NCBI GenBank assembly: GCA_012517155.1
Contig: JAAYVN010000033.1
Location: 1 to 42,887, forward strand
Origin: Ignavibacteriales bacterium
GTDB taxonomy: Bacteria; Bacteroidota; Ignavibacteria; Ignavibacteriales; Ignavibacteriaceae
Direction of reading: 5' to 3'
Length of the DNA: 42,887 bases
Position numbers and translations under genes: made by a program. The notes beneath the pieces were generated by a model. The model ran no database searches. It saw only the letters and a program-made list of their open reading frames with translations, and was not told the DNA's origin. Shown here in pieces: positions 1 to 17,329 of this stretch (positions within the stretch are counted from its first letter, which is position 1; each line of letters opens with the position of its first letter).

Positions 1-2247
1 ATTCAGTTCCCACCATGCCATATTACCTACCTTCATGGGAAGTTCAAGTCGCTTTGAATATCTGATAATTTTATCTTGTGCTTTCTTCTTCTCCGTTATG
101 TCATCGAATATTACACAGAATCTTTCCGTTGTATTCCACGGTCGGTATGCATTCACGTTTAGATACTTATTCATTCCGCTATGATACATCTCAAATTCCT
201 TGGTCACCCCTTGCATTGCAACTTCTCCGAAATTCTTGCACCAGACATTATCTACTTCTGGAAATAGCTCTTTGTTTGTCTTTCCTTGAATATCACCAAA
301 TGAAAAACCTGCCATTCTCTCAAACGCATCATTCACATATTCAAAACTAAATGTCCCAAAATCCCCGGTCTCATCATACACCGTCTTGAATACTGCAAAA
401 GCACTCGACATGCTCTTGAAAAGCCACCTGAGTTCAGATTCATTTTGCTTCAATTGATGAGTACGTTGCTCTATTATCCTTTCAAGATCTACATTTCGCC
501 GGTTTATAAATAGTACTAAAAATACTAAAATTGCAGTTATACTCATCCCTGCAATAATAGTGAACAAGTATGCATTATTCTGATAATAATCTGTAAATAC
601 ATTGCTTGCTCTTGCAACCATCATATATGTGTTACCAAAAACAAATAAAGGATAACTGAACGAAAGTTCACCAAGCGATACTAAGCTGAATTTTTCAATT
701 TTTTTATGAATCAGAATGTTGCTCGTTTCATCCGTAGATAAAATATACCTTTCTGGAGAGTTAGGATAAGTCTGGAAAAAATCTATCTCTGAAAAAGCAT
801 TCCCCTCATTTACCGAATATAAATCCCCTCTTAAAAACTTTTCTGTATGCAATATTCCTACCGCAAAACCAAGTAATTCATTCTCTCTCGATGTTTGAGA
901 ATAGACCGGCTTAACCGCTATTATCAATTGTAAATTTTTACTGCTTACATATTTGACTGAAGGATCAACCTCATTTGTTTGCTTGGTTTCAATTCCCTTT
1001 TTAATCGCACGCATAAAATATGGATCAGAGTTAAGGTCCGTCCCTAGTAAAGCCTGCATCTCCCCCACCGGCTCCAGAAACATCAAAGGAAATTTTATCT
1101 TCTCAAGTGGTAAATTTGGATCACACTTGAAAGCTTCTTTGTCCCAGACTTTCTCTTTGCTGAAACCTGCCTTTTGATCTGCTTGCCTGGTTCCTTCCGG
1201 TATTTCGTTCGATACTGCCGGAGCCCATCCCATCATGACCTTTGACGCATTTGCTCCGGCTACTGAACTTATCATTGACTTGAATTCTTTTTCCGATATA
1301 TTATCGGAAGAAGCAAAATAGCTTACTAACATCTTGAAACCGTAATCTCTTATCCCCCTGAAATCATTGCTGATGTTCATTATTTCCTTGCCGGAAACTG
1401 TCGCAAACACCTTATCCCTGTCAATATTTTCTTTCTGATAAAGAATAAGTGCGGTGATCAGTGTAATTAATATGCCGATTATTGCAACTGTCAATGCTTC
1501 TGTGTACTTAGCCCATCTGTATTTCAATAAAAGATTTCGCTGGTATGCATCCAGCAGTAGGTTAATTGCTAGTAGTATAATTGTCAAAAGCAAAACAATA
1601 ATTGCTGCTGTGCTTTTCTGATAATGAATCTTTGCCCGCCATTCATCCGCATCTATATCCACACCTAGCATTATCAGCACTTCATCTGTTGCAGGATCAA
1701 AAACCGGTGATATTGCGGAGACGAATTCACCATACTCATCCGTTGTTGGACCCTCTGTAAATGGTTTCCCTGATACAAAACTCTCGTATAATTCTTTTGA
1801 GGGTGTTTCATATGTCGTCCCCGGGGGCGTTGAGTAAGGATCATCTGAAGGAATGCTCTCGGGTCCGAATAATACTGAACCATCCGAAAAGAGTTTCATT
1901 GTATATATATTTTCCAACCCCAAGGCTTTGGAATACGTCACCAGTTGATCCCGCATTCTGATATATGCCGGCTTCTTTAAATCATTTTCGGAAAATGAAA
2001 GTTGCATCACATGCGATGGATTTATTGACTGGGCTAGGGCATTAGTCTGCCTTTGTAAATTAAACCTCATCTTTCCGTCTATCAGATCAGCCTGCCAGTC
2101 AATAATATACAGTCCTCCGGTGAACAGTACTAAGATTATTGTCCATGACGCAATTCTGAATGCTGGTGAATTCTTTGCAGTCTTTAAAAAGTTTATAACT
2201 GCAATTACTACAAATACCGCTATATATGAATAATCAATATAATCCAT
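1..2247 (-). CDS. Membrane sensor protein with CHASE and PAS domains (3' end cut by window edge)
   Basis: An open frame of 749 codons runs from ATG at 2247 off the left edge, so the C-terminal output domain is missing. An in-frame TAA lies four codons upstream, which fixes the start region; I see no strong Shine-Dalgarno. Two hydrophobic segments (about residues 5-20 and 33-50) are followed by a probable extracytoplasmic domain (51-205), two more membrane segments (about 213-233 and 252-270), a second sensory domain (about 285-540) that resembles CHASE (FASSDNISEKEF near 311-322, GWAP near 340-343), another membrane segment near 565-585 and a PAS domain (about 605-725) ending in a DITEKKKA-type PAC motif. 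A second PAS seems to begin at the edge. It is a signal-transduction receptor, probably a histidine kinase or cyclic-di-GMP enzyme; which one cannot be told from this window. The tandem extracytoplasmic module plus CHASE arrangement is unusual. Confidence 0.8.
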   Translation of the reverse strand, partial: MDYIDYSYIAVFVVIAVINFLKTAKNSPAFRIASWTIILVLFTGGLYIIDWQADLIDGKMRFNLQRQTNALAQSINPSHVMQLSFSENDLKKPAYIRMRDQLVTYSKALGLENIYTMKLFSDGSVLFGPESIPSDDPYSTPPGTTYETPSKELYESFVSGKPFTEGPTTDEYGEFVSAISPVFDPATDEVLIMLGVDIDADEWRAKIHYQKSTAAIIVLLLTIILLAINLLLDAYQRNLLLKYRWAKYTEALTVAIIGILITLITALILYQKENIDRDKVFATVSGKEIMNISNDFRGIRDYGFKMLVSYFASSDNISEKEFKSMISSVAGANASKVMMGWAPAVSNEIPEGTRQADQKAGFSKEKVWDKEAFKCDPNLPLEKIKFPLMFLEPVGEMQALLGTDLNSDPYFMRAIKKGIETKQTNEVDPSVKYVSSKNLQLIIAVKPVYSQTSRENELLGFAVGILHTEKFLRGDLYSVNEGNAFSEIDFFQTYPNSPERYILSTDETSNILIHKKIEKFSLVSLGELSFSYPLFVFGNTYMMVARASNVFTDYYQNNAYLFTIIAGMSITAILVFLVLFINRRNVDLERIIEQRTHQLKQNESELRWLFKSMSSAFAVFKTVYDETGDFGTFSFEYVNDAFERMAGFSFGDIQGKTNKELFPEVDNVWCKNFGEVAMQGVTKEFEMYHSGMNKYLNVNAYRPWNTTERFCVIFDDITEKKKAQDKIIRYSKRLELPMKVGNMAWWELN

Positions 2248-2436
2248 GTTTATAATTTACAAAAAGATTTCCAAAAATAGAACAGTGGGCAATAATCTTT
2301 TTTAATTCACAAATTGTATGAAAAATTGAAAAAATAACCTCTCGGATTCTCCTCCTTCTGATTTCTGGTTGTAATTCATCAAAATTTCCCTTACTCGTCC
2401 CTAAATCCTCCCCCTCCAACCCCTCTCCCTTCGATA

Positions 2437-2491
2437 TGAATACGTAGTGAATACGTAGTGAATACGTACTGAATACGTACTGAATACGTAC
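2437..2491. repeat. Five perfect-length tandem 11-bp repeats, TGAATACGTAG/C
   Basis: Units begin at 2437, 2448, 2459, 2470 and 2481. The first two end in G and the last three in C; otherwise all five are identical. Each contains the palindrome TACGTA. The 11-bp period is close to one helical turn, so all palindromes would face one side of the DNA. The array lies 190 bp upstream of the sensor gene start and 170 bp upstream of the methyltransferase start. It may be an operator array or just a minisatellite. Confidence 0.9.
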
Positions 2492-2624
2492 TTAACTCGA
2501 TTAAACTCCCATTTTACTCCCCTGTTCTTGCTCCACTTATGCATTGCCCCTCTTTCCCCCGGAAATGTGCATAACCGTGCAAAAACTTAAGTTATTTTTT
2601 TTCACTATTTATTTAAGGATTAGG

Positions 2625-2632
2625 TATATTTG
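2625..2632 (+). promoter_or_regulatory. Promoter -7 element for the methyltransferase-uvrB operon
   Basis: TATATTTG matches the Bacteroidota -7 consensus TAnnTTTG exactly and lies 29 bp before the methyltransferase ATG. The -33 position (about 2601-2604, TTCA) matches poorly. The expected transcript start is near 2639. Confidence 0.5.
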
Positions 2633-2661
2633 TAATCCAAAAAAAAAATAACGGAATTTTA

Positions 2662-3219
2662 ATGAAAAAATTAAATCTTGGTTGCGGAAATGACATCAGG
2701 GAAGGATATACCAATCTTGACATAGTTGATTACGGCGGAAATTTGATACATGATATTACCTCTTTCCCCTACCCCTTTGAAGATAATACCTTCGACGAGA
2801 TTTTTTGCTCCCATATACTCGAGCATCTTAACGATTTTCATAAAACAGTATCCGAACTCTACCGGATTAGCAAACCAAACGCAACTATCATTGTTTATGC
2901 CCCATTCTTTCTCAATACCAAGTACTTTGGCGAACCCGACCATAAAATTCCCTTCTCAATTCGCACATTCGATAACTATGAGTATATCGGAAATCGCAAA
3001 CTCAAATTCTATGAAAAATGGAAACTCAATCATAGGACAAACTACCGCGGTAAAGCTCAGTTCGAAATATTGGAGAAAAAATTTATCACCTCCCATTTTG
3101 CCCTCCTGAAATGGATGGACCATCTCTTGAATATTGAACCTGTTATGTATGAACGTTTTCTGGCCGGAATCTTCTCACCCGAAGAAGTTTTCTTCAGACT
3201 AAGGGTCGTTAAAGAATAG
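2662..3219 (+). CDS. Class I SAM-dependent methyltransferase, Methyltransf_11-like
   Basis: This 185-residue protein starts [16 protein letters not shown]: the LNLGCGND stretch (residues 4-11) is the glycine-rich SAM-binding motif I, and NLDI (18-21) gives the acidic residue that usually contacts the SAM ribose. [12 protein letters not shown] (about 45-56) is the motif IV/post-motif region typical of methyltransferases of the Methyltransf_11/23 type. Family members of this short form often act on sugars, lipids or quinones; the substrate cannot be read here. The gene ends 11 bp before uvrB, so the two probably share a transcript from the -7 element near 2625, but no functional link to excision repair is evident. 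Membrane segments are absent, so it should be cytoplasmic. Confidence 0.85.
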
Positions 3220-3230
3220 GTGCTTCCATT

Positions 3231-5252
3231 ATGAAAAAGTTTCAACTGGTCTCCAATTATAAACCCTCAGGGGATCAACCCAACGCAATCAGACAGCTTA
3301 TCCAAGGCATCGAATCCGGTGATAAGTTCCAAACCTTGCTGGGTGTTACTGGCAGCGGAAAAACCTTCACAATCTCAAACGTTATAGCACAGACCAACCG
3401 CCCCACTTTAATAATTTCTCATAATAAAACTTTGGCCGCTCAGCTCTATTCTGAATTCAAATCTTTTTTTCCTGAAAATTCGGTTGAATTTTTTATTAGC
3501 TACTACGACTACTATCAGCCCGAAGCTTACGTTGTCTCAAGTGATTTATATATAGAAAAGGATTTTTCCGTCAATGAGGAAATTGACCGCCTCCGCCTAA
3601 AAGCCACCACCTCCCTCATCGAAGGTCGGCGGGATGTTATTATTGTCGCTAGCGTTAGCTGTATCTACGGTATCGGCGCACCTCAGCAGTTTGCAGATCA
3701 AATAATATTTATTAACAAGAACGACTCCCTCCCCAAAAAAAAATTGATGCGCAATCTTTCTGACATTTTCTATAACAGAAATGATGCCGATTTCAAAAGA
3801 GGCACCTTCCGCTCCAGAGGCGATGTCCTCGAAATAATCCCCGCCTTTCAGTACGAAGAAGCTATTCGCCTTGAATACTGGGGTGACGAAATTGAAAAAA
3901 TCTCCCTGATCGACTCGGTTACCGGTGACCTTATTCGTGAACTCGACTCCACCGCTATCTACCCTGCTAAGTACTATGTCTCCGATCCGCTTAGCATAAA
4001 CAAAGCTATTCTTCGGATCGAAGCCGAACTGGACCAAAGATTAAAAGAACTTAGAAATAACGAAAAGTTCCTCGAAGCACAGAGACTTGAACAACGTACC
4101 AGATTTGATATCGAAATGATGAAAGAGATCGGTTATTGCTCCGGAATAGAAAATTACTCCCGTCATATCGACAACCGCGAACCAGGCAGCAGACCCTACT
4201 GCTTGTTCGATTACTTCCCAGACGACTTGCTGGTTATCATCGACGAATCTCACGTCACAATTCCCCAAATCCGCGGAATGTATAACGGCGACCGCGCTAG
4301 AAAATCTGTCCTCGTTGAATATGGCTTCCGTCTCCCGTCAGCTCTCGATAACCGCCCTATGAAATATGAAGAGTTTTACAATATGCTCAATCAGGTGATT
4401 TTCGTTAGTGCAACTCCGGGTGATTATGAACTCGAAAAATCTGAAGGCGTTATTGTCGAACAAATTATTCGCCCCACCGGACTGGTGGACCCCGAAGTCT
4501 CCGTACGTCCAATTAAAGGCCAGATTGATGACCTTATCGGCGAGATTCGAACCCGTGCGGTTCGTGGTGGGAGAGTCCTTGTTACTACCCTCACAAAAAA
4601 AATGGCGGAGGATTTGTCCGACTACCTCGATAAGATAAAAATACGTGTGCGATATATCCATAGCGATATTGACGCACTCGAAAGAGTTGAAATCCTTAGA
4701 GACCTTAGATTAGGTGACTTTGATGTCCTGGTTGGTGTTAACCTGCTTCGAGAAGGATTGGACCTCCCGGAAGTCTCCCTCGTCGCGATTATAGATGCTG
4801 ATAAAGAAGGCTTCCTCCGTAGCGAAAGATCTCTTATGCAAACTGCAGGACGAACTGCCCGAAACGTCAATGGCATGGTTATCATGTACGCGGATAAAAT
4901 GACCGATTCAATGAAAAAAATGATTTCCGAAACAAACCGCAGACGAAAACTCCAGATCGAATACAACCGCGTAAACAATATTACCCCGCAAACAATCTAT
5001 AAAAGCTATGAGGAAATCCTCCTCTCTACCTCAATTGCAGATGTCCGCAAGAAAGATGACGAAAAACCGGATTATGGATTGCTTAAAGTTGCCGAACCGG
5101 TTATGAAATATATGTCCGACGATGAGAAAAAAGACCTTGTCAGCCAGATGACTGAGGAAATGTACAAAGCTGCAAAAGACATGGAATTTGAAAAGGCCGC
5201 CTCCCTTCGTGACGAAATCGAAAAATTAAAGAAACATCTTAAAATAAAGTAA
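3231..5252 (+). CDS. uvrB: UvrABC excinuclease subunit B
   Basis: UvrB is the damage-verifying ATPase of nucleotide excision repair: it is loaded by UvrA and recruits UvrC for incision. The 673-residue length is typical. Visible signatures are Walker A GVTGSGKT (residues 38-45), the damage-probing beta-hairpin [11 protein letters not shown] (91-101), the Walker B-type IIDESH (about 336-341), helicase motifs in the second RecA-like domain ([15 protein letters not shown], and QTAGRTARN around 540), and a C-terminal UVR motif (about 635-668) that binds UvrC and UvrA. The start is ATG 3231, 11 bp after the methyltransferase stop. A conserved and intact gene; no oddity seen. Confidence 0.98.
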
Positions 5253-5449
5253 CCTCTGGCCCCATCCTCTTAAACCACCTAAATTCTCCTCTTTTCCTGT
5301 TTTTTTTCCTTTTCCTCGAAAATTCGCCTTAAATTATGTGAAATAAATAAAATTAGTGATTTTCAGCACTATTTTTTTACCATTTATCCATTTTTTCTTG
5401 ATTTTTATTCAAGTTTAATTATTTTAGCAAGTAAGGAAAGGAGAAATTT

Positions 5450-5479
5450 GTGAACTTTTTTTCCCCATTTCCCGTCTAA
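5450..5479 (+). CDS. Possible nine-residue leader peptide (GTG start)
   Basis: GTG at 5450 opens a frame MNFFSPFPV followed by TAA. It sits six bases after a purine run containing AAGGAG (about 5437-5442), a better ribosome-binding site than many annotated genes here have. The hairpin at 5491-5509 follows 12 bases after the stop. The peptide is rich in Phe and Pro, so a translation-dependent leader is possible. Chance is a real alternative at this length. Confidence 0.25.
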   Translation: MNFFSPFPV

Positions 5480-5506
5480 TTATAAAATTTAAAAGGATCG
5501 TCTCCT

Positions 5507-5538
5507 TTTGAACAGTTTGTCTAAAGGAATTATTTTAA
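5507..5538 (+). promoter_or_regulatory. Candidate promoter of the small gene at 5638
   Basis: TTTG (5507-5510), exactly 20 bp, then TATTTTAA (5531-5538) resembles the Bacteroidota TTTG-N19/21-TAnnTTTG promoter, missing the final TG. The transcript would start near 5545 and leave a leader of about 93 bases. The -33 element overlaps the 3' arm of the hairpin at 5491-5509. Confidence 0.4.
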
Positions 5539-5637
5539 TCACTTTTTTGTTAACAATATAAAGGAAACCGCGTATAGCATAACTGATACTGATTTAACCA
5601 ACAGTGATCACTAGCAACAAACGAAAGGATGTGTACT

Positions 5638-5886
5638 ATGAAACAAGTAGTAGCAAAAATCAACAACCCTCTGTCTGATTTAATCAGTGATGAAGTTTAT
5701 GAAATTTTATTCACTCACGGTTTGATTGACGAAAAATCCGTAAGAGATTATCAGATTAGAAAAAAGTTCAAACAACTTAGATCAAACAAAATTAGTGCGG
5801 GTGATGCAATTGACAGTATCCGTGAAGAGTATCCTTATCTCCAGTTCGACACGATACGCAAAATTGTTTATCAGATACATAAATAA
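5638..5886 (+). CDS. Small hypothetical protein, about 82 residues
   Basis: I do not recognise a family. An in-frame ATG at 5629 sits almost on the Shine-Dalgarno, whereas ATG 5638 lies eight bases after AAAGGA, so I prefer 5638. The product has no signal peptide or membrane segment. It looks like a compact helical protein: a region with DLISDEVYEIL, then a GLIDEKSVRDYQIRKKF helix rich in basic residues (about 34-50), and a C-terminal IRKIVYQIHK. The spaced helices and positive charge would suit a nucleic-acid-binding or adaptor protein, but this is inference. It is followed by the two-hairpin element at 5953-6023 and is preceded by an unusually long control region, suggesting it is well expressed or regulated. 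Confidence 0.7.
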   Translation: MKQVVAKINNPLSDLISDEVYEILFTHGLIDEKSVRDYQIRKKFKQLRSNKISAGDAIDSIREEYPYLQFDTIRKIVYQIHK

Positions 5887-5911
5887 AATTTAATTTTTTT
5901 TTGATAAACAC

Positions 5912-5942
5912 TTGCCTGATAAAAAAAAATGTTTTATATTTG
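5912..5942 (+). promoter_or_regulatory. Strong Bacteroidota-type promoter before two hairpins
   Basis: TTG (5912-5914), 20 bp, TATATTTG (5935-5942) is a full match to the -33/-7 consensus. The expected transcript start is near 5949, just before the first hairpin and inside no gene. This means the hairpin pair is the very start of a transcript, not only the tail of the upstream gene. Confidence 0.65.
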
Positions 5943-5948
5943 GAATGT

Positions 5949-6023
5949 CTTTCTCACAGGTTTCTCCCCTGGCCTGTGAGTTGAATAAGACGGCCCAGTG
6001 CTCCCCCAGCACTGGGTTTTTTT
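5949..6023 (+). ncRNA. Candidate small RNA or attenuator leader: two hairpins with C-rich loops
   Basis: From the predicted start at about 5949 the transcript would fold into hairpin 1, CTCACAGG/CCTGTGAG (5953-5960 with 5973-5980, 8 bp, 12-base loop containing CTCCCC), and hairpin 2, a 9-bp stem with loop CCCCC followed by seven T. Both loops carry CUCC, complementary to GGAG of Shine-Dalgarno sequences. Length would be about 75 bases. Either it is a small RNA ending at the terminator, or it is an attenuator leader of the DUF3098-EutN-dprA operon that starts 22 bases later. An alternative pairing of 5969-5974 with 5992-5998 (six pairs, one bulge) would break both hairpins, as an antiterminator would. 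No known RNA family recognised. Confidence 0.45.
5994..6023 (+). terminator. Intrinsic terminator
   Basis: CCCAGTGCT (5994-6002), loop CCCCC (6003-6007), AGCACTGGG (6008-6016), then seven T (6017-6023): a perfect 9-bp stem with a U tract. It can end transcripts of the gene at 5638 and the short transcript starting near 5949. Confidence 0.92.
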
Positions 6024-6044
6024 ATATTTAACGGAGCTTAATAA

Positions 6045-6317
6045 ATGGCAAAAATAGAAAAGAAAAAAACAACCAAGTCATTAAAAAAATCCTTAGTCTC
6101 CCCTTTTAACATTTACTGGGATTCCAGAAATTATATCCTTCTGATTGCCGGCGTGGTTATTGGCGCAATTGGATTTGTTTTTATGACTGTTAATCCTTGG
6201 GATAGCACTGAATCTCTTTTTATCTCCCCCATTCTGTTGTTTGTAGCTTATTTCCTTATCTTCCCTCTCTCTATTCTCTTAAAGAAAAAAGAAGAAAATA
6301 ACAACAAGGAATCCTGA
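6045..6317 (+). CDS. DUF3098-like small membrane protein
   Basis: This 90-residue protein has a lysine-rich N-terminus (residues 3-17) and two hydrophobic helices (about 29-48 and 61-80), ending in a charged KKKEENNNKE tail. The size, the two-helix plan and the sequence around NYILLIAGVVIGAIGFVFM match the DUF3098 family of Bacteroidota, often found next to cell-division genes; its biochemical role is unknown. The start ATG 6045 follows CGGAG by eight bases. It is the first gene of a run with the EutN-like gene (1-bp gap) and dprA. The topology suggests both termini in the cytoplasm. Confidence 0.7.
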   Translation: MAKIEKKKTTKSLKKSLVSPFNIYWDSRNYILLIAGVVIGAIGFVFMTVNPWDSTESLFISPILLFVAYFLIFPLSILLKKKEENNNKES

Positions 6318-6318
6318 A

Positions 6319-6597
6319 GTGCTCCTCGCTAAAGTGAGGGGAAACATCGTTTCCACACAGAAAAACAAGGAACTCATTGGTCATAAATTGATGGTTGTCC
6401 GTCAGATTGACCTCGACGGAAAATTTATGAACAATACTGACATTGTGGCACTTGACCTCATAGACTCAGGTCAGGGAGATACAGTACTGATTGTCCAGGA
6501 AGGGGATGCTGTTCAGCAGATACTCGGTCATAAACGGGCTCCCGTTCATACCATAATTGTTGCCAACGTAGATAAAATTGACTCTCCACTAAAGTGA
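6319..6597 (+). CDS. EutN/CcmL-family microcompartment vertex protein (orphan)
   Basis: The 92-residue product has the typical length and features of EutN/CcmL/CsoS4 pentamer proteins: it opens with LLAKVRGNIVSTQKN, continues with LIGHKLMVVRQI and contains the VALDLIDSGQGDTVLIVQEGDAV stretch (near residues 43-65), ending in the strand APVHTIIVANVDKID. These proteins cap the vertices of bacterial microcompartment shells. The start is GTG 6319, eight bases after AAGGA within the previous gene. No hexameric BMC shell gene or encapsulated enzyme is present in the window, so its role here is uncertain: it may serve a shell encoded elsewhere or have a separate function. It shares an operon with DUF3098-like and dprA genes. 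Confidence 0.88.
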   Translation: MLLAKVRGNIVSTQKNKELIGHKLMVVRQIDLDGKFMNNTDIVALDLIDSGQGDTVLIVQEGDAVQQILGHKRAPVHTIIVANVDKIDSPLK

Positions 6598-6604
6598 TTT
6601 AACC

Positions 6605-7729
6605 TTGCATTCCTTATCTGTTCCTGATATCGCCGTTCTGAAATTACTCCTCTCGGTAGAAGGCATTGGTCCGGCAAGGGTCAGACTACTGAAAAACGGC
6701 CTCTCTTCTTTTCAGAATATATTAAACGCTGATAAAATCGCCCTCGTTTCCATTAATGGAATTAATGAGTCGGTAGCCGAAGCAGTTATCGCGGCTAAAA
6801 AAGATTTTCCGGAATATGAGGACAAAGTCAACCAGGAACTCCTTCGTCTTAGCAATCTTGGAGGAGAGATAATCAGCTTGTGGGATGACAAATATCCCGA
6901 CCTTCTTAAAAAAATCTATGACCCCCCAATACTTCTTTATGTGCTTGGTGAAATGACCGAACAGGATTACTATAGCCTCGCGGTTGTCGGAACAAGAATC
7001 CCCACTAACTACGGCAAGATTATGACTGAGAAACTTGTCACCGGAATCTGTGAAAAAGGAATGACGGTTGTTAGCGGTCTGGCACGCGGTATTGATACTG
7101 TCGCCCATTCCACCACGCTTAAATTCGGAGGAAGAACAATCGCCGTGCTTGGATGCGGAGTTGATGTTCACTATCCCCCCGAGAACCGGAAGTTTTATGA
7201 AGAAATCCCCCGCGTTGGTGCGGTCGTCTCGGAATATGAACTGGGTACTTCTCCGGATGCGGTTAATTTTCCAAGAAGAAATCGGATAATCTCGGGACTC
7301 TCCCTGGGCACTCTGGTTATCGAAACCCGGGAAAATGGCGGAGCTATGCAAACTGCCCATTTTGCTCTTGAACAAAACCGGGAAATATTTGCTCTCCCGG
7401 GAAATGTCAATATCCATCAGTCCGAGGGGACCAACAGGTTGATTAAAGAGAGTAAGGCAAAGCTGGTACAGGACGTAAACGATATTTATGAAGAACTCGC
7501 ATACAAAATTCAACCCCTCCTCAATAAAGAAAACCGTGTTAAACCCAAAGTAGATTTGAATATGTTCCAGGAAAAGATTCTCGAAGCTCTTGGAAATGAA
7601 CAGGTGCATATTGATATCATAGCAAAAAAAACCGGTTTCTCAACCGCCGATTGTCTTTTTCACCTCCTGACTCTTGAGATGGAAGGTCTGGTTAAACAAC
7701 TCCCCGGCACTCACTTTATTGCCTACTGA
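6605..7729 (+). CDS. dprA: DNA processing protein DprA (Smf)
   Basis: DprA binds incoming single-stranded DNA and loads RecA during natural transformation. Over about 374 residues I see an N-terminal helix-hairpin-helix-like stretch (VEGIGPARVRLLKNG, near 18-32), the Rossmann-like core with VVGTRIPTNYG (about 127-137), SGLARGIDTVAH (about 157-168), GCGVDVHYPPENR (about 183-195), RNRIISGLS and ALPGNVN motifs, and a C-terminal winged-helix DML1-like domain (about 312-374). The only in-frame start near the previous stop is TTG 6605, seven bases after the EutN stop; ATG or GTG alternatives are absent upstream, and the homologous region begins right after it. It ends 16 bp from the convergent rarA. 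No com genes are visible, so competence is an inference. Confidence 0.95.
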   Translation: MHSLSVPDIAVLKLLLSVEGIGPARVRLLKNGLSSFQNILNADKIALVSINGINESVAEAVIAAKKDFPEYEDKVNQELLRLSNLGGEIISLWDDKYPDLLKKIYDPPILLYVLGEMTEQDYYSLAVVGTRIPTNYGKIMTEKLVTGICEKGMTVVSGLARGIDTVAHSTTLKFGGRTIAVLGCGVDVHYPPENRKFYEEIPRVGAVVSEYELGTSPDAVNFPRRNRIISGLSLGTLVIETRENGGAMQTAHFALEQNREIFALPGNVNIHQSEGTNRLIKESKAKLVQDVNDIYEELAYKIQPLLNKENRVKPKVDLNMFQEKILEALGNEQVHIDIIAKKTGFSTADCLFHLLTLEMEGLVKQLPGTHFIAY

Positions 7730-7745
7730 TTTTATCTCATTAAAC

Positions 7746-9032
7746 TCAGTACTTCTTCTTTTTCCACAACGCCTTTAACCGCTCTTTAAGATTTTTCTCC
7801 TGTCCTAGCTCTGTCGGTTTATAATACTGAGTTCCTTCAAGTTCCTTGGGAAAGTAGTTTTCTTCTACAAAATGCCCGTCGAAATTATGCGCATACTTAT
7901 AATCCTTTCCATAACCAAACGCCTTCATTAACCCTGTCGGCGCATTGCGTAAATGTAACGGAACTGGATAAAGCGGTTTATTGCGCACATCGGAAAAAGC
8001 CCCCTCCATTGCGGCATAGGATGCATTGCTTTTTGGTGAGGACGCCAGATATGTTACACACTGAGCAAGTATAATCCGCGCTTCGGGCATTCCAATCTGG
8101 TGGATTGCTGAGAAAGCCGCCTCCGCAAGTACAAGCCCGTTCGGTGATGCATTACCAATATCCTCGGAAGCAAGTATTATCAGTCTCCTCGCTATGAACA
8201 GCGGATCTTCTCCCCCGTCCAGCATTCTTGCCATCCAGTATAATGCGGCATCCGGATCACTCCCGCGCACGCTCTTGATAAATGCCGATATTATGTTGTA
8301 ATGCTCTTCCCCCGCTTTGTCATAAATTAAATTCTTTGCCTGTATTACGTTCTCGATTATCTCTTTCGAAATAATGATCTGCTCTTTATCCTGCTCCTGG
8401 ATTACGCATGCCTCCAGTGTGTTAAGCAGAATTCTTGCGTCTCCCCCCGACACATAATAAAGAAATTCCTTGTCGGCGATTTCAATCTCCAGCTTTTTCA
8501 GCTCCTCATCCCTCGAAAGCGCATCGTGAAGAATTTTCTCCAGACAGTTGACGTCCAGTTCGTTTAACTTATAAGTACGCATTCTGGATCTTAGTGCCGG
8601 GATGATCTCGAAGGATGGATTTTCAGTGGTTGCCCCTATCAAAGTAAGTATGCCTGACTCAACAGAATTAAGCAGTGCGTCCTGCTGAGATTTATTGAAC
8701 CTGTGTATCTCATCAATAAATAAAATCGTCCGTTTGTTGTATGCACGGTTCTCTTTGGCTATGGCGATTATTTCCCGTATTTCCTTAACCCCGGAAGAGA
8801 CTGCATTGATCTGGAAAAATTCTGAACGCGTCTTCTCTGCAATAAGTCTGGCAATTGTTGTCTTCCCGGTCCCGGGAGGTCCCCAAAGTGAGAAAGAAGT
8901 TACCGCATCCTTCTCGATCATGAGTCTTATCGGTTTCCCTGTTCCCAGCAGATGTTCCTGTCCGTGAAAATCTTCAAGCTCTTTTGGACGCACTCTTTCT
9001 GCCAGCGGAATAAGGTTTGAATAAACTCCCAT
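7746..9032 (-). CDS. rarA: Replication-associated recombination protein A (RarA/MgsA AAA+ ATPase)
   Basis: RarA is an AAA+ clamp-loader-like ATPase that acts at stalled forks and maintains genome stability. The 428-residue protein carries Walker [10 protein letters not shown] (51-59), Walker [19 protein letters not shown] (about 103-120), sensor 1 [12 protein letters not shown] and sensor 2/arginine-finger region PALRSRMR, then the tetramerising C-terminal MgsA domain with [15 protein letters not shown] and [14 protein letters not shown]. The length is normal. It is the last gene of the minus run starting at metF, four bases after the DivIC-like gene, and is convergent with dprA. Confidence 0.97.
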
Positions 9033-9036
9033 CGCT

Positions 9037-9348
9037 CTACTTCTTTTCCACTCTGATTATTCTTTCGTTCGGCCGGCTCATGTTGAACTTCTCTCGTGCT
9101 AGTTTCTCAATTTTGGCAGGCTCTTTCCTCTGCAGCGAATCAATCTCGTTCTCAAGTCTTTTATTCATTTCCCCTATCTCCAGGGTGTCCTTCTCGAGTT
9201 GTTCCTTTTCCCCCTTTACCTTCAGGTATTTGATGTACCCGGACTGATTAAAAACAATAAAGAAAACCGCTATCGCCACGGCAATTATGAAAATTATCAG
9301 AAACCAGGGTTTTCCTTTTTTATCTGTTTTACTTCTTACCGTTGCCAT
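9037..9348 (-). CDS. Septum formation initiator family protein (FtsB/DivIC-like)
   Basis: The 103-residue protein has a short basic N-terminus, one membrane helix (about 17-35) and an extracytoplasmic coiled coil (about 42-78, rich in E, K and L heptads), followed by a conserved-looking EKLAREKFNMSRPNERIIRVE end that matches the DivIC/FtsB signature (AREKFgM-P-E-i). Such proteins bind FtsL and FtsQ and activate septal peptidoglycan synthesis. The start codon overlaps the 3' end of ddl by 20 bp, suggesting translational coupling; pairing with ddl fits a role in wall synthesis and division. Confidence 0.85.
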   Translation of the reverse strand: MATVRSKTDKKGKPWFLIIFIIAVAIAVFFIVFNQSGYIKYLKVKGEKEQLEKDTLEIGEMNKRLENEIDSLQRKEPAKIEKLAREKFNMSRPNERIIRVEKK

Positions 9349-10342
9349 TTAACGAATTTAAAATAATTCTTTCTATTAACTCCGTGAATGATATTCCCGC
9401 AACTTTAGCCATCTTGGGAAGCAGACTGGTTGAGGTCATTCCGGGAAGTGTGTTTACTTCAAAACAGACATAACTCCCATCTGGTCTGAGCTTGAAATCA
9501 ACCCGGCCATAATTCTTGCATCCCAGCGAATTGTAAGCAAGGAGGGCCTGATCCCTGAGTTGATTTGCGGTTTCCCTGGGAATTTCCGCAGGAACAATGT
9601 ACTCGCTCATACCGTGTGTATATTTGCACTCATAATCGTAAAGTTCGTGCTTGGGCTTTATTTCTAGCACCGGAAGCGGTGTTCCGTCCAGTATCCCGAC
9701 TGTAAGTTCCCTGCCGGGTACGAATGTCTCAATAATCGTGGTATCAGAAAAAGAGAAGGAAAAATCCAGAGCTTTTTTAATCTCTTCCGCACGCTTGCAG
9801 ATTGTCAGTCCGAATGTACTCCCCTGATCATTTGGTTTTACAACCGCCGGGTATCCTATCTCTTCTTCAATTCTACTCATAACCTGCTGAAGATCATACT
9901 TCCCCGAAACTATTGTAAATCCATTGTGTACATGAATTCCGTTCTGACGGAAAATAGTTTTGGACATCCCCTTGTCCATTGCCAAAGCACTTGCAAGCAC
10001 TCCCGATCCGGTATATCGGATATCCTGAATTTCCAGCAGTGACTGCAAAGTCCCGTCCTCTCCCCACTTCCCGTGCAACCCGATAAAAGCAAGATCAACA
10101 TCCTTCAGAAAATCCAGTCCCATTGCCGCTGTGTAGTTTTTGTGGGATATTTCTTCCCCCTTGTCCTCTCCAAAATAATCCCCAACGTCAGCGTGCTGCT
10201 TCAATCCGAGCGCAGGATCCACCGGCATTACTTCATGCCCTGATTCATTAAGGGTTTGGTAAATGGATTTCGAAGACAGCTTTGATACCGGTCTTTCCGG
10301 CGAGGCGCCTCCGGTAAACAGCGCTATTTTTAATTTATTCAT
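9329..10342 (-). CDS. ddl: D-alanine--D-alanine ligase
   Basis: Ddl joins two D-alanines with ATP to make the dipeptide end of the peptidoglycan stem. This 337-residue ATP-grasp enzyme shows LFTGGASPERPVS near the N-terminus, GLHGKWGEDGTLQ (about 88-100), YTGSGVLASALAMDKGMSK (about 109-127), KPNDQGSTFGLT (about 169-180), and the C-terminal RVDFKLRPDGS and EVNTLPGMTSTSLLP magnesium/ATP-binding motifs. The usual HGxxGEDG is HGKWGEDG here, as in the family. It lies nine bases after the class II aldolase gene and overlaps the DivIC-like gene by 20 bp. Intact. Confidence 0.97.
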   Translation of the reverse strand: MNKLKIALFTGGASPERPVSKLSSKSIYQTLNESGHEVMPVDPALGLKQHADVGDYFGEDKGEEISHKNYTAAMGLDFLKDVDLAFIGLHGKWGEDGTLQSLLEIQDIRYTGSGVLASALAMDKGMSKTIFRQNGIHVHNGFTIVSGKYDLQQVMSRIEEEIGYPAVVKPNDQGSTFGLTICKRAEEIKKALDFSFSFSDTTIIETFVPGRELTVGILDGTPLPVLEIKPKHELYDYECKYTHGMSEYIVPAEIPRETANQLRDQALLAYNSLGCKNYGRVDFKLRPDGSYVCFEVNTLPGMTSTSLLPKMAKVAGISFTELIERIILNSLNGNGKK

Positions 10343-10351
10343 TTCCGCTCT

Positions 10352-11008
10352 CTAAAATTTATTCTTCTCGTGAAGTTTAATTCCGTAAACTTTTTCCGCT
10401 GCTGAGTATAATTTATTAAGATCTTCTCTGCTCAGCTGCCTTACAGTCCCCAAAGTGCGTGCTATGGTCAGGCTCTGCGCATAGTGTTCAAGTTTTTCCA
10501 TTCTGTAAAATGCCTCTTTCAGGTTTTTGCCCACCGTAACGGCACCGTGATTTTCGAGCAGAAAAACATTTGCAAACTCGATATATTGGGAGAGGCTTTC
10601 TGCCAGTTCATCCGTTGAAGGGGTGGCATAGCGGCATAGCGGTATCCTTCCTATTGTCAGAACCACCTCAGGAAATACCGGGATATCCAGTGTGTTTCCC
10701 GTTGTTGCGAATGCAGTAGCGTGCAGAGGATGGCAATGGATTACTGCGTTAACATCCTTCCGCATTTTATAAATATACCTGTGCATCCTGAACTCGGTCG
10801 ATGCTTTCCCCTGTCCCATTACCAGATTCCCGTCAGGATCGCAGGCTATTATATCCTTTTCCTCGACTTCCCCTTTTGATATTCCGGAACGCGTTATCAG
10901 CAGTACATTCTCTGAAAAACGAACAGATAAATTCCCGTCAGTAGCAGCTGTGAATCCATGCTCATAGACTTTGCGGGAATATTTTTTTAAGTCCGTCTTA
11001 AGCGACAT
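10352..11008 (-). CDS. Class II aldolase/adducin family protein, fuculose-phosphate-aldolase-like
   Basis: This 218-residue protein fits the zinc-dependent class II aldolase family (FucA, AraD, MtnB). The probable zinc ligands are H91 and H93 in IHCHPLHATA and H154 in LENHGAV; E72 in STEFRMHRYIY matches the catalytic glutamate position. GNLSVR (25-30) and ITRSGISKG (38-46) form the phosphate-binding region. Family members split or epimerise sugar phosphates, but the substrate cannot be set by eye; fuculose-1-phosphate is the best guess. Its start overlaps the end of the Gfo/Idh oxidoreductase gene by 22 bp, so the two are probably translated together and may act on the same sugar-derived compound. 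Confidence 0.88.
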   Translation of the reverse strand: MSLKTDLKKYSRKVYEHGFTAATDGNLSVRFSENVLLITRSGISKGEVEEKDIIACDPDGNLVMGQGKASTEFRMHRYIYKMRKDVNAVIHCHPLHATAFATTGNTLDIPVFPEVVLTIGRIPLCRYATPSTDELAESLSQYIEFANVFLLENHGAVTVGKNLKEAFYRMEKLEHYAQSLTIARTLGTVRQLSREDLNKLYSAAEKVYGIKLHEKNKF

Positions 11009-11994
11009 TTGGTTTCCAGCTCCTCCATGAGTTTCATAACCGCCAGTCCGTCTTCTCCCGTAACGGTGGCATCCTGATTTCTCATGAATGAATGATTTAC
11101 ACTTCTCAAAAGTTTATTCTGTTTGTTCCCTCTTTTGCGGAATGCTTTTCTTGCCTCGCCTTCCAGCAGTAATGTCATTTTTGCGGAGTAGGGAAACTTC
11201 CCCGCTATCAGATTATCTATGCTTATCGAGCCTTTGGTACCGGTAAGTTCCAGCCGGTTAAAAGCCCGTGGAGTACAAAACGCAACATTGAAATACCCGT
11301 AATGCCCCTTCTCAAATTTTACTATTCCCGCAGCAAAGTCATCCACCTCGGTTTTATAAATAAGATTCTCATTGCAGCCGTGTATTTCTTTTATCTCTCC
11401 CCCCAGATATCTGAACAGATCAAGCACATGCGGGGCAAGATCCAGCATAGCTCCCCCCCCATATTCTTTTTTATACCTGAAATTATCTCCCGGCAGGAAA
11501 TTAGTTGCAAACTGTCCCTGTATATTCACGAGTGTCCCGATCATTCCCCCCTCTATAATTTCCTTCAACTTCATGGTCAAAGGATGGAACCGGTACACAA
11601 GGTTAACTGCCAGATGCACATTGTGTTCGCGGCATACCCTGACCATCTCCTCGGCTTCCGCAGCGGTCACACTCAGCGGCTTGTCGCACAAAATATGCTT
11701 CCCTGCTTTAGCCGCAAGAATAACCTGCCTGTAATGGTCGGAATTCTTACTGCCTATATACACAGCATCAATTCCTGAACCAAGAAATTCCCGAAAATCC
11801 GAATAATGGTTTGGAATGAAGTATTTCCCCGCAACCGATTTTGCCCTTTGCGGATTACTGCTGTATAACGATTCAACCTTAATCCGTCTTATCAGCAGCA
11901 TATTGGGAATAATAGACTGTTCCGAAAATGATCCAAGCCCCACCACACCCCACTTTAATCGTTTGTTCGTTTTTTTCTTTCGGATTTTTAACAT
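10987..11994 (-). CDS. Gfo/Idh/MocA family NAD(P)-dependent oxidoreductase
   Basis: The 335-residue protein begins with a very basic tail (residues 2-12), then the Rossmann motif WGVVGLGSFSE (about 15-25), a GSKNSDHYRQVILAAKAGKHILCDKPL segment spanning the usual E/D-K-P motif (DKP here), LAVNLVYRFHP and GGGAMLDLAPHVLDLFRYLGG, the conserved GG-x3-D-x3-H pattern holding the catalytic histidine. Such enzymes oxidise or reduce sugars, inositols and related alcohols. It sits eight bases after metF and overlaps the aldolase gene; a two-step sugar pathway with that aldolase is plausible. The exact substrate is unknown. Confidence 0.92.
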   Translation of the reverse strand: MLKIRKKKTNKRLKWGVVGLGSFSEQSIIPNMLLIRRIKVESLYSSNPQRAKSVAGKYFIPNHYSDFREFLGSGIDAVYIGSKNSDHYRQVILAAKAGKHILCDKPLSVTAAEAEEMVRVCREHNVHLAVNLVYRFHPLTMKLKEIIEGGMIGTLVNIQGQFATNFLPGDNFRYKKEYGGGAMLDLAPHVLDLFRYLGGEIKEIHGCNENLIYKTEVDDFAAGIVKFEKGHYGYFNVAFCTPRAFNRLELTGTKGSISIDNLIAGKFPYSAKMTLLLEGEARKAFRKRGNKQNKLLRSVNHSFMRNQDATVTGEDGLAVMKLMEELETKCRLRRT

Positions 11995-12002
11995 GATATT
12001 AT

Positions 12003-12980
12003 TTATTTAGTAACAAAAAAATTGTTCTTGTCTAACTTTAATTTCGCCATGAGTCTTTTTATCGGTGCCGTGTTCTGCATTACGTAAAAATGAATGCTTG
12101 GGGCTCCTTTTTCAAGCAATTCTGTTACCTGTTTTGCTGCCCAGTTAACGCCGATTTCCATAGTGTGTTCCGGACGTGCTTCCATCACCTCGTCAACTAG
12201 TTCATCCGGAATATTGATAAAGAAATTGCGGGGTATATTTGTCAGGTGCGGCTTGATAGTAATTATTTTAAGCCCGGGTATTACCGGCGCCCCGATCCCC
12301 TCAGCTCTGCACATCTCCAGATAGTTGAAATAATGTTTGTTGTCGTAAAACATCTGCGTAACAATATAGTCCGCCCCGGCTTCTATTTTCATCTTTGTGT
12401 ATTTAACGTCGGTCTTTAGGCTTGGAGCTTCAAAGTGCTTTTCCGGATAACCCGAAACCCCGATGCAGAAATTCGTCGGGAAAGCATCCAGCAGATTTTC
12501 CTCTAGATAGTGCCCATTGTTCATTGCCTTGACCTGTTTCACCAGGTCGAGCGCATAGTAATTAGCACTTCTTCCCGCCGGCACCGGTTTAGTAAATCCG
12601 CTGTCGTCTCCTCTTATCGCAAGAATATTCTCTATCCCCAGATAGTTTAATTCAATAAGAAAATCTTCCGTCTCCTCACGGGTGAAATTCTTGCAGAGCA
12701 AATGCGGCACAGCGTCAATATTGTACTTGTTCTGAATTAGCGCGCAGATACCCAGCGTTCCCGGACGCTTTCTTATTACTTTTTTCTTTATTCCGGAACT
12801 TGTTTCCTCATAAATCACTTCCGCCGCATGACTGGTGATGTCGATAAAAGGGGGATTGTACTTCGACAAATCGTCTATTACCTGTAAAATGGATTTCATA
12901 TCCCCCCCTCTTTTCGGAGGGATAATTTCAAAACTGATAAAAGGTTCTTTCGCCTTCTCTAAATGTTCAATAACTTTCAT
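12003..12980 (-). CDS. metF: 5,10-methylenetetrahydrofolate reductase
   Basis: MetF reduces 5,10-methylene-THF to 5-methyl-THF with FAD, feeding methionine synthesis. The 325-residue TIM-barrel protein has the catalytic glutamate motif SFEIIPPKRGG (about 16-26), DITSHAA (about 47-53), NILAIRGDDS (about 117-126), CIGVSGYPEKH (about 172-182), KIEAGADYIVTQMFYDN (about 193-209) and PVIPGLKII (about 232-240). It is slightly longer than the E. coli enzyme through C-terminal additions. First gene of the minus run down to rarA; a -7 element TAAATTTG lies 31 bp upstream. Confidence 0.95.
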   Translation of the reverse strand: MKVIEHLEKAKEPFISFEIIPPKRGGDMKSILQVIDDLSKYNPPFIDITSHAAEVIYEETSSGIKKKVIRKRPGTLGICALIQNKYNIDAVPHLLCKNFTREETEDFLIELNYLGIENILAIRGDDSGFTKPVPAGRSANYYALDLVKQVKAMNNGHYLEENLLDAFPTNFCIGVSGYPEKHFEAPSLKTDVKYTKMKIEAGADYIVTQMFYDNKHYFNYLEMCRAEGIGAPVIPGLKIITIKPHLTNIPRNFFINIPDELVDEVMEARPEHTMEIGVNWAAKQVTELLEKGAPSIHFYVMQNTAPIKRLMAKLKLDKNNFFVTK

Positions 12981-13010
12981 TGGTCTTCATATATTTCTAT
13001 AACGTGATCT

Positions 13011-13018
13011 CAAATTTA
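13011..13018 (-). promoter_or_regulatory. Promoter -7 element for the metF-rarA operon
   Basis: On the minus strand TAAATTTG fits TAnnTTTG exactly, 31 bp before the metF start. I find no TTTG at the right distance upstream, so only the -7 half is supported. Confidence 0.4.
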
Positions 13019-13080
13019 ACAAAATAATAACAAATATCCCTCTTATCCGTTTCCTTGCCGTCAAGCTAAACTCGCTTGTA

Positions 13081-13110
13081 TTGAGAACTCCCCTCAATTT
13101 ATTATATTGG
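13081..13110 (+). promoter_or_regulatory. Promoter of the TPR gene
   Basis: TTG (13081-13083), 19 bp, TATATTGG (13103-13110) is close to TTG-N19/20-TAnnTTTG and ends 26 bp before the ATG. A small inverted repeat TTGAG-N7-CTCAA (13081-13097) overlaps the -33 side and could bind a regulator. Confidence 0.5.
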
Positions 13111-13136
13111 TTTTATAATTTAACCCTTCATGCAAT

Positions 13137-13700
13137 ATGAAAAAAGATGTGCAAAAAGCCGGGCGCTGTTTCGAAGAAGCTGAAAGACTCCTCATGGAAG
13201 GAGTGTACCTTAAAGCCATCAGGCAGTTTACCAAAGCAATATCAATCAATCCCCGCTTCGCCGAAGCACTCTATAACCGTGCACTGGCATACTATTTTTT
13301 GAAAGATTTTAAAAGTGCAATTCCCGACCTCACCGCGGCAATAGAGAGCAATCACTTGTACAAGGATGCATATATGCAAAGAGGCATCTGCTATTTTTCC
13401 CTTTCCGGGTATTCGGATGCCCTCGCTGATTTCAACAAGGCAATAGAACTCGATCCTGCTTCGCTTACCTTATTTGAATTAAGGGGAGTGGTAAAATTTC
13501 ATCTTCGTGATTATGCCGGTGCTGTTTCGGACTATGACGTCGCCCTTTCCAAACCGGGTTATTCAACAGACCTTTATTACTTTCGCGGGAATGCAAATTA
13601 TGAACTTGGCAGACTTGATGAAGCCAGAGCTGATTATCTTCGCGGAATTGAGGTTGGCAGCCGTCTCGCACAACAGGCTTTTGAAGATTTGTTCACATAA
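13137..13700 (+). CDS. Tetratricopeptide repeat protein
   Basis: The 187-residue protein is built almost entirely of 34-residue TPR units: ISINPRFAEALYNRALAYYF, KDFKSAIPDLTAAIESN, DAYMQRGICYFSLSGYSDALADFNKAIELDP, and later FELRGVVKFHLRDYAGAVSDYDVAL and FRGNANYELGRLDEARADYLRGIE. About five repeats are visible. TPR arrays bind partner proteins. There is no signal peptide or membrane segment, so it should be cytoplasmic. It is a single gene with its own promoter, divergent from metF and convergent with the histidine kinase at 13831; a partner cannot be named. Confidence 0.9.
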   Translation: MKKDVQKAGRCFEEAERLLMEGVYLKAIRQFTKAISINPRFAEALYNRALAYYFLKDFKSAIPDLTAAIESNHLYKDAYMQRGICYFSLSGYSDALADFNKAIELDPASLTLFELRGVVKFHLRDYAGAVSDYDVALSKPGYSTDLYYFRGNANYELGRLDEARADYLRGIEVGSRLAQQAFEDLFT

Positions 13701-13830
13701 AACTATTCGCCAAGCACTAATTCTCCCAGCTAACCACTCTGTTATCTTCCTTGTGGCGGATATTTTCACCGTATCGTCCGCTTTCGCAGGCATGTCCATA
13801 TTCTCACCCCACCGCAGGAATTAATTCATT

Positions 13831-16074
13831 TTATGCCATCGGCAATTCAAGTGTAAAGGTTGTCCCTTCCCCTACGTGACTTGTGAAATCAAGTTTCCCT
13901 CTAATCATTTCGGTACATTTCTTAGAGATCGCTAATCCAAGTCCGCACCCCTCAAATCCCCTTCCAATTCCTTCGCTAACCTGGCGGAAAGGTTCCCATA
14001 TAATTTCCTGCTTTTCTTCAGGAATTCCGACACCGGTATCTTTAACGCTAATTATTCCCTTCCCGTTTTCCTTTTGTACGCTTACTTCAATACTTCCGCT
14101 TCTGGTAAACTTCACCGCATTTTTTAACAGATTATTCAACACTTCCTTTACATGCTTCAGGTCTGTTAAACAGAAAAGATTATCATGCCCGTCATTATAA
14201 ATCAGTTCAATCCCCTTTGTCCGGGCTTGTGATGTAAACTCTTTAATCGACTCAACTACTACTGGAATAATATCACTGCTTTCCAACTTGGCGCTTTTCT
14301 CCTCAGCCTCAATTTTAGAGAACACCAGAATGTTATTCAGTGTCTCAAGAAGCCTTAACCCGCTTTCATTAATTGTTGTCGCCATTCCGTACAACTCAGA
14401 ACCAGTCCGGAGATAGTCCTGAAGTATCTCCGAGTAGCCCAATATCCCTATTAATGGTGTCCGGAGTTCGTGACTCATATTCGCAAAGAAGTACGACTTC
14501 ACCCTGTTCATCTCTTCAGCTTTGACTTTTGCAGCAAGCAGCTCATCCAGCATAGCCTTCTTTTCACTTATATCTTCCTTAATCGCTATAAAATTAACTA
14601 TCTCCCCTTTTTCATTCTTGACCGGTGTGATAATCGCATTTTCCAAATATAGCTCACCGTTCTTTTTCTTGTTCCGGAATTCCCCTTGCCACACTTTCCC
14701 CGAAAGAATAGTATTCCAAAGCTCCTTATAAAACTTCTCATCCTGATGCCCTGATTGAAGAAACTTCGGATTTTTCCCTCTGACTTCTTCAAATGAGTAT
14801 CCCGTGATCTTTGTAAAAAATGGATTTACATACTCAATGTTTCCTTCCGGATCGGTTATGATCATGCATACTGAACTTTGATCTACGGCTTGACTTAGTT
14901 TGAAAATCTCCGCTTCGGTTTTTTTCCTTTCGGTTATATCCTCATTTGTTACGATAATCCCTATGATCTCATTTCTTGAGTTTATTACAGGTAAGGCAGA
15001 GTTCAGAATTATTTTTTTGCTTCCGTCAAAACATTCGATTGCTATCTCTTCTCTTAAGGAGATTTCCCTTTTTGTAACCGCTCTTGCTGCTCCCCATTCT
15101 TCCGCTTCAATCCTTTTTCCCGAATCCAGCCACCAACCCTTATACTCATTGTAATCGTCTATCCCTACGTGTTTTATACCTCCCCATATTTTCTGCCCTT
15201 CGGGATTAGCATGTTGTATATTCCCTTCTTTATCCAGTATCCACAAACCTACCGGTATTATATTCAGAATATGTGATAATAGCTTTGTTTGATCATGAAG
15301 CTGCTTTTCATAGTTTTTTCTCTCGGTGATGTCGAACATATAACCGGTGATTTGCTGCAGATTTCCCTTCTCATCAAAAATCCCAACCACATTCTCCACA
15401 ACCGTAACAGGCGCTCCGTCTTTTGCTTTGAGCAGAGTCTCTCTGTTTGCTAATTTATTTTTGTCTTTAAGTTCCTCCAGAAATGAGGTCCTGTCCACTT
15501 CTTCAAAATAAAATATTCGCGCATTAAGTCCCTTAAGTTCTTCAACAGTGTTATAACGCAACATTTGAGCAAAGGCATTATTACAATAAATAATCTCCCC
15601 GTCCGGTGTCGTTATATAATCTCCTGTCAGATCTTCGTCAAGAAAACTTCGTGATCTTATCTCAGTTTCAGCCAGTAATCTTTTCCTTCTTCTTCTTTCC
15701 ATTGCATAGTTGATTGCTCTTGATAGTGTGAATTTATCAAGGTGCGATTTGGGAATTATATCAATTCCCTCTTTCAGCAGTTCCTCATTCTCTTCTTCCG
15801 ATCCGCATTTATCGCAAAGTATAATGACTTCACACTTTTCCGACATACTCTTTATTTTCCTGGCTTCCTCAACTAATCCTCCCTCTTGCCATTTCAATCC
15901 GGCTATCAACACATCCGGAATATAGTTTGCCAGATGCACGAAGGCTTCATCCGGCCTTTCCACGTGAAAATAGTGAGCATTCTTGTATTTCGATATTTCT
16001 AATAATCCCTTTAATACTTCCGCATCTTTCTTTTTCTCTTCTATATATAAAATTGTGTTTACTTCTTTATTCAT
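13831..16074 (-). CDS. Soluble histidine kinase with degenerate receiver and three PAS domains
   Basis: The 747-residue protein has no membrane segment. Residues 1-130 have a receiver-like fold (ILYIEEKKKDAEVL, then DVLIAGLKWQEGG, and IIPKSHLD), but the phospho-acceptor aspartate position reads Gly (IAGL), so it cannot be phosphorylated in the normal way. PAS/PAC units follow at about 145-255, 268-390 and 393-515, each ending in a DITERK/DISEKK motif. The kinase core has FFANMSHELRTPL with the phosphorylated H535, N box LLKNAVKFT, G1 DTGVGIP and G2 GCGLGLAI. The lone receiver at 16143 lies upstream by 68 bp and is its likely partner. Confidence 0.93.
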   Translation of the reverse strand: MNKEVNTILYIEEKKKDAEVLKGLLEISKYKNAHYFHVERPDEAFVHLANYIPDVLIAGLKWQEGGLVEEARKIKSMSEKCEVIILCDKCGSEEENEELLKEGIDIIPKSHLDKFTLSRAINYAMERRRRKRLLAETEIRSRSFLDEDLTGDYITTPDGEIIYCNNAFAQMLRYNTVEELKGLNARIFYFEEVDRTSFLEELKDKNKLANRETLLKAKDGAPVTVVENVVGIFDEKGNLQQITGYMFDITERKNYEKQLHDQTKLLSHILNIIPVGLWILDKEGNIQHANPEGQKIWGGIKHVGIDDYNEYKGWWLDSGKRIEAEEWGAARAVTKREISLREEIAIECFDGSKKIILNSALPVINSRNEIIGIIVTNEDITERKKTEAEIFKLSQAVDQSSVCMIITDPEGNIEYVNPFFTKITGYSFEEVRGKNPKFLQSGHQDEKFYKELWNTILSGKVWQGEFRNKKKNGELYLENAIITPVKNEKGEIVNFIAIKEDISEKKAMLDELLAAKVKAEEMNRVKSYFFANMSHELRTPLIGILGYSEILQDYLRTGSELYGMATTINESGLRLLETLNNILVFSKIEAEEKSAKLESSDIIPVVVESIKEFTSQARTKGIELIYNDGHDNLFCLTDLKHVKEVLNNLLKNAVKFTRSGSIEVSVQKENGKGIISVKDTGVGIPEEKQEIIWEPFRQVSEGIGRGFEGCGLGLAISKKCTEMIRGKLDFTSHVGEGTTFTLELPMA

Positions 16075-17325: not shown

Positions 17326-17329
17326 TTTA

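Follow-up and report, generated by a model that had tools for sequence, protein, structure and literature searches.

The window, i.e. the whole analysed stretch of 42,887 nucleotides from an Ignavibacteriales bacterium, carries at 5947–6023 of the forward strand a small RNA of about 77 nt (ends predicted), which belongs with near certainty to a real RNA family with a conserved structure. The locus is probably a small RNA (sRNA) gene of the class Ignavibacteria that acts in trans and whose leaky terminator lets its promoter also feed the DUF3098-like gene behind it. In the proposed mechanism, transcription would begin at the first bases of an outer helix, P1, and usually end at a terminator hairpin, P3, giving an RNA of about 77 nt. 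This RNA would expose two C-rich loops, UUCUCCCCUG and CCCCC, of which the conserved one would base-pair, independently of Hfq, with G-rich sites of a restricted set of mRNAs. At the commonest genomic site, the leaky terminator would allow the same promoter to supply the DUF3098-like mRNA.

In this part of the window, a gene for a conserved 81-aa protein (5641–5886) is followed by the promoter (5912–5942), the RNA, the DUF3098-like gene (6045–6317), the gene of an EutN/CcmL-type microcompartment vertex protein (6319–6597), and dprA, all on the forward strand, with rarA on the other strand. No ORF of at least 60 aa lies between 5887 and 6044. The promoter TTGCCT-N17-TATATT(TG), in the form TTGCCT-N17-TATATTTG, has TTGCCT at 5912–5917 and TATATT at 5935–5940 and reaches 9 of 12 matches—the full promoter directly before the RNA that the original prediction had placed here. 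From the position of the −10 box, transcription should begin near 5946–5948, the first bases of P1, and not near 5949 as first proposed. The DUF3098-like gene encodes a small protein that scores 16.5 bits against a Pfam cut-off of 25; its relatives were recognised with an HMM built for this purpose from the relatives themselves, and a GGAG (6033–6036) stands ahead of its start codon. The 81-aa protein reaches no Pfam or NCBIfam cut-off and thus has no assigned family. It shows 62–88% identity to the window's protein in relatives of families f1–f3, in most of which it lies directly 5′ of the RNA (for example, L003–L011, L013–L015, L102, and L129), and such strong conservation of a small protein suggests an important function.

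The RNA features three helices. P1 pairs 5947–5951 with 5987–5991 and encloses the hairpin P2 (5953–5980; pairs 5953–5961/5972–5980), which carries the loop UUCUCCCCUG at 5962–5971. The terminator hairpin P3 (5992–6018; pairs 5993–6001/6009–6017) follows with the loop CCCCC at 6003–6007 and a U tract of seven T (6017–6023), the first two bases of which are also able to pair. Two hairpins, the second a terminator, with no coding in between had been anticipated, and both are found as described; P1 was absent from that description and is added here. The loops of both hairpins had been said to expose CUCC, which holds for loop 1, whereas in loop 2 the C and U are paired and only CCCCC is left unpaired. 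The 79-nt stretch 5946–6024 folds with −36.1 kcal/mol (z −6.4), and none of 200 shuffled sequences is equally stable.

Blastn finds matches with E <1e-4 in 13 relatives at 72–83% identity, and the same anatomy is present at their loci; most of the approximately 150 places matched by blastn are at chance level and were left out. The alignment and covariance model built from these 13 relatives and the window sequence itself comprise 24 rows, including three extra copies with blastn E values of their own of 2.7e-4 to 0.0074. The model matches the window at G000:C97:5945-6019 with 83.5 bits. Across the 24 copies, the three helices are paired in 95.1% of the cells, and 14 of 23 pairs feature two-sided changes. 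A larger, non-redundant set of 71 copies, aligned on sequence only, features two-sided changes in all 23 pairs, which marks a genuine RNA family. In this set, 92.9% of the cells are paired compared with 74.5% in shuffles and at most 45.8% in slid versions, and covariation scores 0.607, compared with 0.256 and at most 0.138, respectively—the structure being drawn from the same sequences, it is favoured over the slid versions, above all on cells paired.

The helices differ in strength. P3 is paired in 98.3% and P2 in 94.2% of the cells of the 71 copies, each with two-sided changes in nine of nine pairs. P1 is the weakest helix with 80.8% of cells paired; it covaries, with two-sided changes in five of five pairs. 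Among the 24 copies, it is imperfect in that two pairs are broken in 6 and one pair in 10, and RNAalifold predicts P2 and P3 from these copies and P1 not. The stems vary and loop 1 is kept: TTCTCCCCTG occurs in 92 of 114 unique copies, namely in 71 of the 86 that precede a DUF3098-like gene and in 21 of the 28 found elsewhere. The shorter CTCCCC is present in the P2 region of 79 of the 86 and of 25 of the 28.

Two groups of diverged copies were observed in addition. In six f2 loci (L099–L104), loop 1, that of P2, is lost; their P3 loop is C-rich, with UCUCCCCCC in four of them, and five retain the promoter. Given this loss and the retained C-rich P3 loop, the functional bases may have shifted to the terminator hairpin. 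The extra copies L168–L171 (four in G003) and L184 (one in G021) retain CTCCCCTG as part of loop 1, and GCC-bearing letters replace the C-rich terminator loop.

The promoter is conserved in position as well. Among copies upstream of DUF3098, TTGACA-N16/18-TATATT ends 4–5 nt 5′ of the RNA in 77 of 85, and the mean promoter match is 11.3 of 12 compared with 8.1 for shuffled letters. Promoter-like sites are weaker at the 28 free-standing copies (mean 9.7 of 12 compared with 8.2 for shuffled letters; 17 of 28 at 3–5 nt), so that some of them may be silent. These observations bear on the plainest reading of the locus: an ordinary terminator of the upstream gene next to an incidental promoter-like sequence. 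P3 with its U tract is indeed the top-scoring of 25 terminator-like sites in positions 1–20000 of the window. However, P1 and P2 covary, the loop is conserved, the promoter is held at a fixed distance, and the RNA occurs behind differing upstream genes and in isolation. Covariation and promoter spacing rule out a mere terminator, and this reading as a whole is highly improbable.

The distribution of the RNA follows the class, a group of environmental bacteria over much of which it is retained. At E ≤0.1, the threshold applied to the family and class samples, 73 of the 80 family genomes, including 48 of the 49 of good quality, match the covariance model from 24 copies. A single match is found in 35 of the 73 genomes, the window's own genome having a single copy, and more than one in 38, up to a maximum of eight; six of these 38 count as multi-copy only through a second match with E >0.01. 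In the class sample, 86 of 294 genomes match at E ≤0.1, and matches with E <1e-6 come from the families f1, f3, f5, f7, f14, f19, and f31. In the phylum sample, 40 of 395 genomes match at E ≤0.01, four of them outside the class with E values of 0.002 to 0.007, which is about the chance expectation. A pattern scan of a named genome collection yielded 60 stretches, 41 with an Ignavibacter- name in the title, 14 with Bacteroidetes, and one each with Bacteroidota, Bacteroidia, Chlorobiaceae, Chlorobi, and plain bacterium; as judged by the class search, the 19 stretches without an Ignavibacter- title probably belong to Ignavibacteria, too. Plasmid and phage records gave no match to the RNA.

Across the RNA of the window, no Rfam 15 family attains its gathering score, and on 20 member loci the Rfam matches are rRNA and tRNA only, away from the RNA. 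The RNA was not recognised in the literature among the matches listed, a coverage that excludes subscription journals and preprints. As far as Rfam 15 and these literature matches go, the family is new; the kind of RNA is already known.

The genomic settings of the RNA were compared in 114 unique copies, derived from 161 model matches in the examined loci; three weak antisense matches (L071, L072, and L157) were left out before counting. Of these copies, 86 precede a same-strand DUF3098-like ORF, two of them as upstream members of a tandem array. For the remaining 84, the distance to the next in-frame start codon, counted from 15 nt downstream onwards, ranges from 15 to 87 nt with a median of 27 nt and is no more than 60 nt in 82. 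The other 28 copies lie between other genes without DUF3098. The copies without DUF3098 were partly chosen by hand from match lists (7 regions and 20), and the ratio of 84 to 28 is therefore no census.

The DUF3098-like gene is the constant neighbour of the RNA. In most f1–f3 loci, the gene of the 81-aa protein precedes the two and EutN and/or dprA follow them, and the EutN gene between the DUF3098-like gene and dprA is present in many relatives and undetected in others. In other families, an ABC-ATPase gene, which we take to be of the LolD type, lies upstream in four of the six loci listed, and tRNAs lie downstream in four of seven scanned loci. EutN and dprA, included in the DUF3098-EutN-dprA unit initially proposed as the regulated operon, are outside the class-wide link.

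The short gap leaves no room for another promoter between RNA and gene. DUF3098 would, therefore, have to be transcribed through the terminator, either from the promoter of the RNA or from further upstream. The T tracts agree with this: the longest T run after P3 averages 5.4 before DUF3098 and 6.4 elsewhere (p 2e-4, kinship ignored), as expected if read-through is needed there, and the T count in the nine bases after P3 differs little (7.55 compared with 7.64; p 0.04). Such an arrangement also suits a leader that acts in cis only, i.e. an attenuator setting DUF3098 expression, in which a signal, a protein, or an RNA melts P3 and the short RNA is a by-product. The position immediately 5′ of a DUF3098-like gene in 84 of 114 copies, across several families with otherwise differing neighbours, is in line with this reading, as are the missing space for a further promoter and the shorter T runs. 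In addition, a GGAG occurs within 45 nt 3′ of the RNA in 39 of the 86 copies before DUF3098, so that pairing in cis with the ribosome site of DUF3098 in a read-through mRNA is possible.

Two findings weigh against a leader confined to cis. The 28 copies without DUF3098 keep CTCCCC in 25 cases; 26 of them have a downstream ORF of at least 80 aa in view, which is on the same strand in 15 (within 60 nt in one) and faces the copy from the opposite strand in 11. The single antiterminator pairing examined is poorly conserved. This pairing (5969–5974 with 5992–5998), originally proposed as mutually exclusive, is paired in 75.7% of the cells; two of its six pairs are broken in 16 and 15 of the 24 copies, although only 2 of 500 shuffles equal it in cells paired and covariation score, an outcome due to one pair with two compensated sequences. 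Of the attenuator first suggested, the class-wide position before a DUF3098-like gene stands and the switch by this pairing is doubtful, and we consider it unlikely that the RNA is a cis-acting leader only.

The alternative offered alongside it, a trans-acting RNA of about 75 nt, is strengthened by the class-wide covariation, the promoter at fixed distance, and the free-standing copies. Conservation of the loop in copies with no gene behind them points to a function in trans, and an independent sRNA with action in trans is the likely identity of this RNA. The free-standing copies suggest regulation of other genes. Tandem arrays occur in G036 (three copies, next to DUF3098), G032 (three), and G007 (two). 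The tandem copies in G007 and G032 (L033, L035, and L147) precede the same gene of a 594-aa protein, presumably a GTP-type PEP carboxykinase.

Pairing of the loops with GGAG ribosome-binding sites in general, as first envisaged, is not borne out by target prediction. In a duplex-energy sample of 400 kb of G007 plus the window (266 ORFs), loop 1 is predicted to pair no better with start regions than with control regions, the near-minus-far difference being −0.008 kcal/mol and 31 of 60 scrambles reaching a value as low; the control, the 16S anti-Shine-Dalgarno word, gives −0.36 in the same ORFs. In the G007 sample, AGGA precedes 42 and GGAG 26 of 176 genes, compared with 10 and 8 at control positions. 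On this sample, a general anti-Shine-Dalgarno role is rejected: these motifs stand before a minority of genes, and loop 1 does not favour start regions. The own genome shows no enrichment of the perfect complement AGGGGAGAA (65 sites compared with 71 for the reversed word), and 3 of 30 inspected sites among the 65 have an ORF of at least 60 aa starting just behind. The pattern CAGGGGAGAAN{3,14}ATG occurs 42 times in 31 genomes (three sites twice) compared with 13 for the reversed pattern, which is a poor control for this excess because it also reverses the ATG. The excess of CAGGGGAGAA before ATG stems mainly from G002, G007, G009, and G040; the own genome has none, compared with two for the reversed pattern. 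Most of the 30 places inspected among the 42 are not gene starts, the ORF length at five (L250, L252, L255, L264, and L265) would be compatible with a ribosome site, and no common gene was recognised among the 30 by eye.

The absent start-site preference is also in keeping with a protein-binding decoy, in which the C-rich loops titrate an RNA-binding protein such as an RRM protein, much as GGA-loop RNAs titrate CsrA. The short conserved loop on variable stems, the several copies in many genomes—up to eight—and two RRM matches in the own genome would suit such a role. However, 35 of the 73 family genomes have just one copy, which offers no more than two loops that differ from each other, and the loop has no known protein binder; a decoy is quite improbable. 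For the preferred reading, an RNA pairing in trans with a limited mRNA set, independence of Hfq is suggested by 0 of 41 genomes exceeding the Pfam cut-off for Hfq in a search that, as a control, detected it in 5 of 14 known genomes. One weaker match, with internal stops, was found in G041.

Among described RNAs, the closest arrangement is that of UpsM of Rhodobacter sphaeroides, an sRNA of Rhodobacteraceae whose terminator lies within the dcw cluster's leader (PMC5089854). Both feature an intrinsic terminator in the 5′ leader of a conserved gene without a separate start site for that gene, are restricted to one taxon, and are thought to act in trans. In that account, UpsM is 206 nt long and its cleavage depends on Hfq, whereas the Ignavibacteria RNA has about 77 nt and Hfq was not found in the 41 genomes; set against UpsM as described there, free-standing and tandem copies are a feature of the Ignavibacteria RNA. 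Leader-derived sRNAs are marked by a terminator shortly before a gene with no room for a promoter, and the median gap here is 27 nt. Leader-derived RNAs with independent roles are described in E. coli as well (PMC7815308).

The closest anatomy is that of ar14/NfeR1 of alphaproteobacteria (RF02344), an Hfq-independent RNA whose C-rich loops are identical and whose stems vary (PMC10746234, PMC3927594). Both RNAs consist of hairpins in which the stems are variable and a C-rich loop is strongly conserved. In these descriptions, ar14/NfeR1 has the loop CCUCCUCCC, 123 nt, and three hairpins, compared with UUCUCCCCUG and CCCCC in the Ignavibacteria RNA, which, as a further contrast, shows no start-site preference in 266 ORFs. 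Membership in RF02344 was rejected at 23.8 bits against a gathering score of 58.8 and with CCUCCUCCC absent from the loops. The best Rfam match is anti-hemB, Burkholderia RNA 7 (RF02837), likewise short with a C/U-rich hairpin and a terminator hairpin; membership was rejected at 26.3 bits against 49.5 and with the model's middle hairpin not formed. RsaE/RoxS of Firmicutes and LhrC also carry a C-rich unpaired motif, LhrC in several copies, and are absent among the Rfam matches of the window.

Most knowledge of regulatory RNAs comes from Proteobacteria and Firmicutes. More tentatively, and with confidence somewhat short of even, we suggest a class-wide Hfq-independent trans RNA that was born as the leaky leader of one membrane-protein gene and of which copies were repeatedly seeded and tandem-amplified; its C-rich loop would be no Shine-Dalgarno mimic, and it would possibly be the first regulatory RNA family of Ignavibacteria. 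The RNA is a leader replicated by nature, occurring both in cis and as free copies; with its strongly conserved loop and its presence in 48 of the 49 good-quality genomes of the family, it is also a handle on post-transcriptional regulation in such bacteria.
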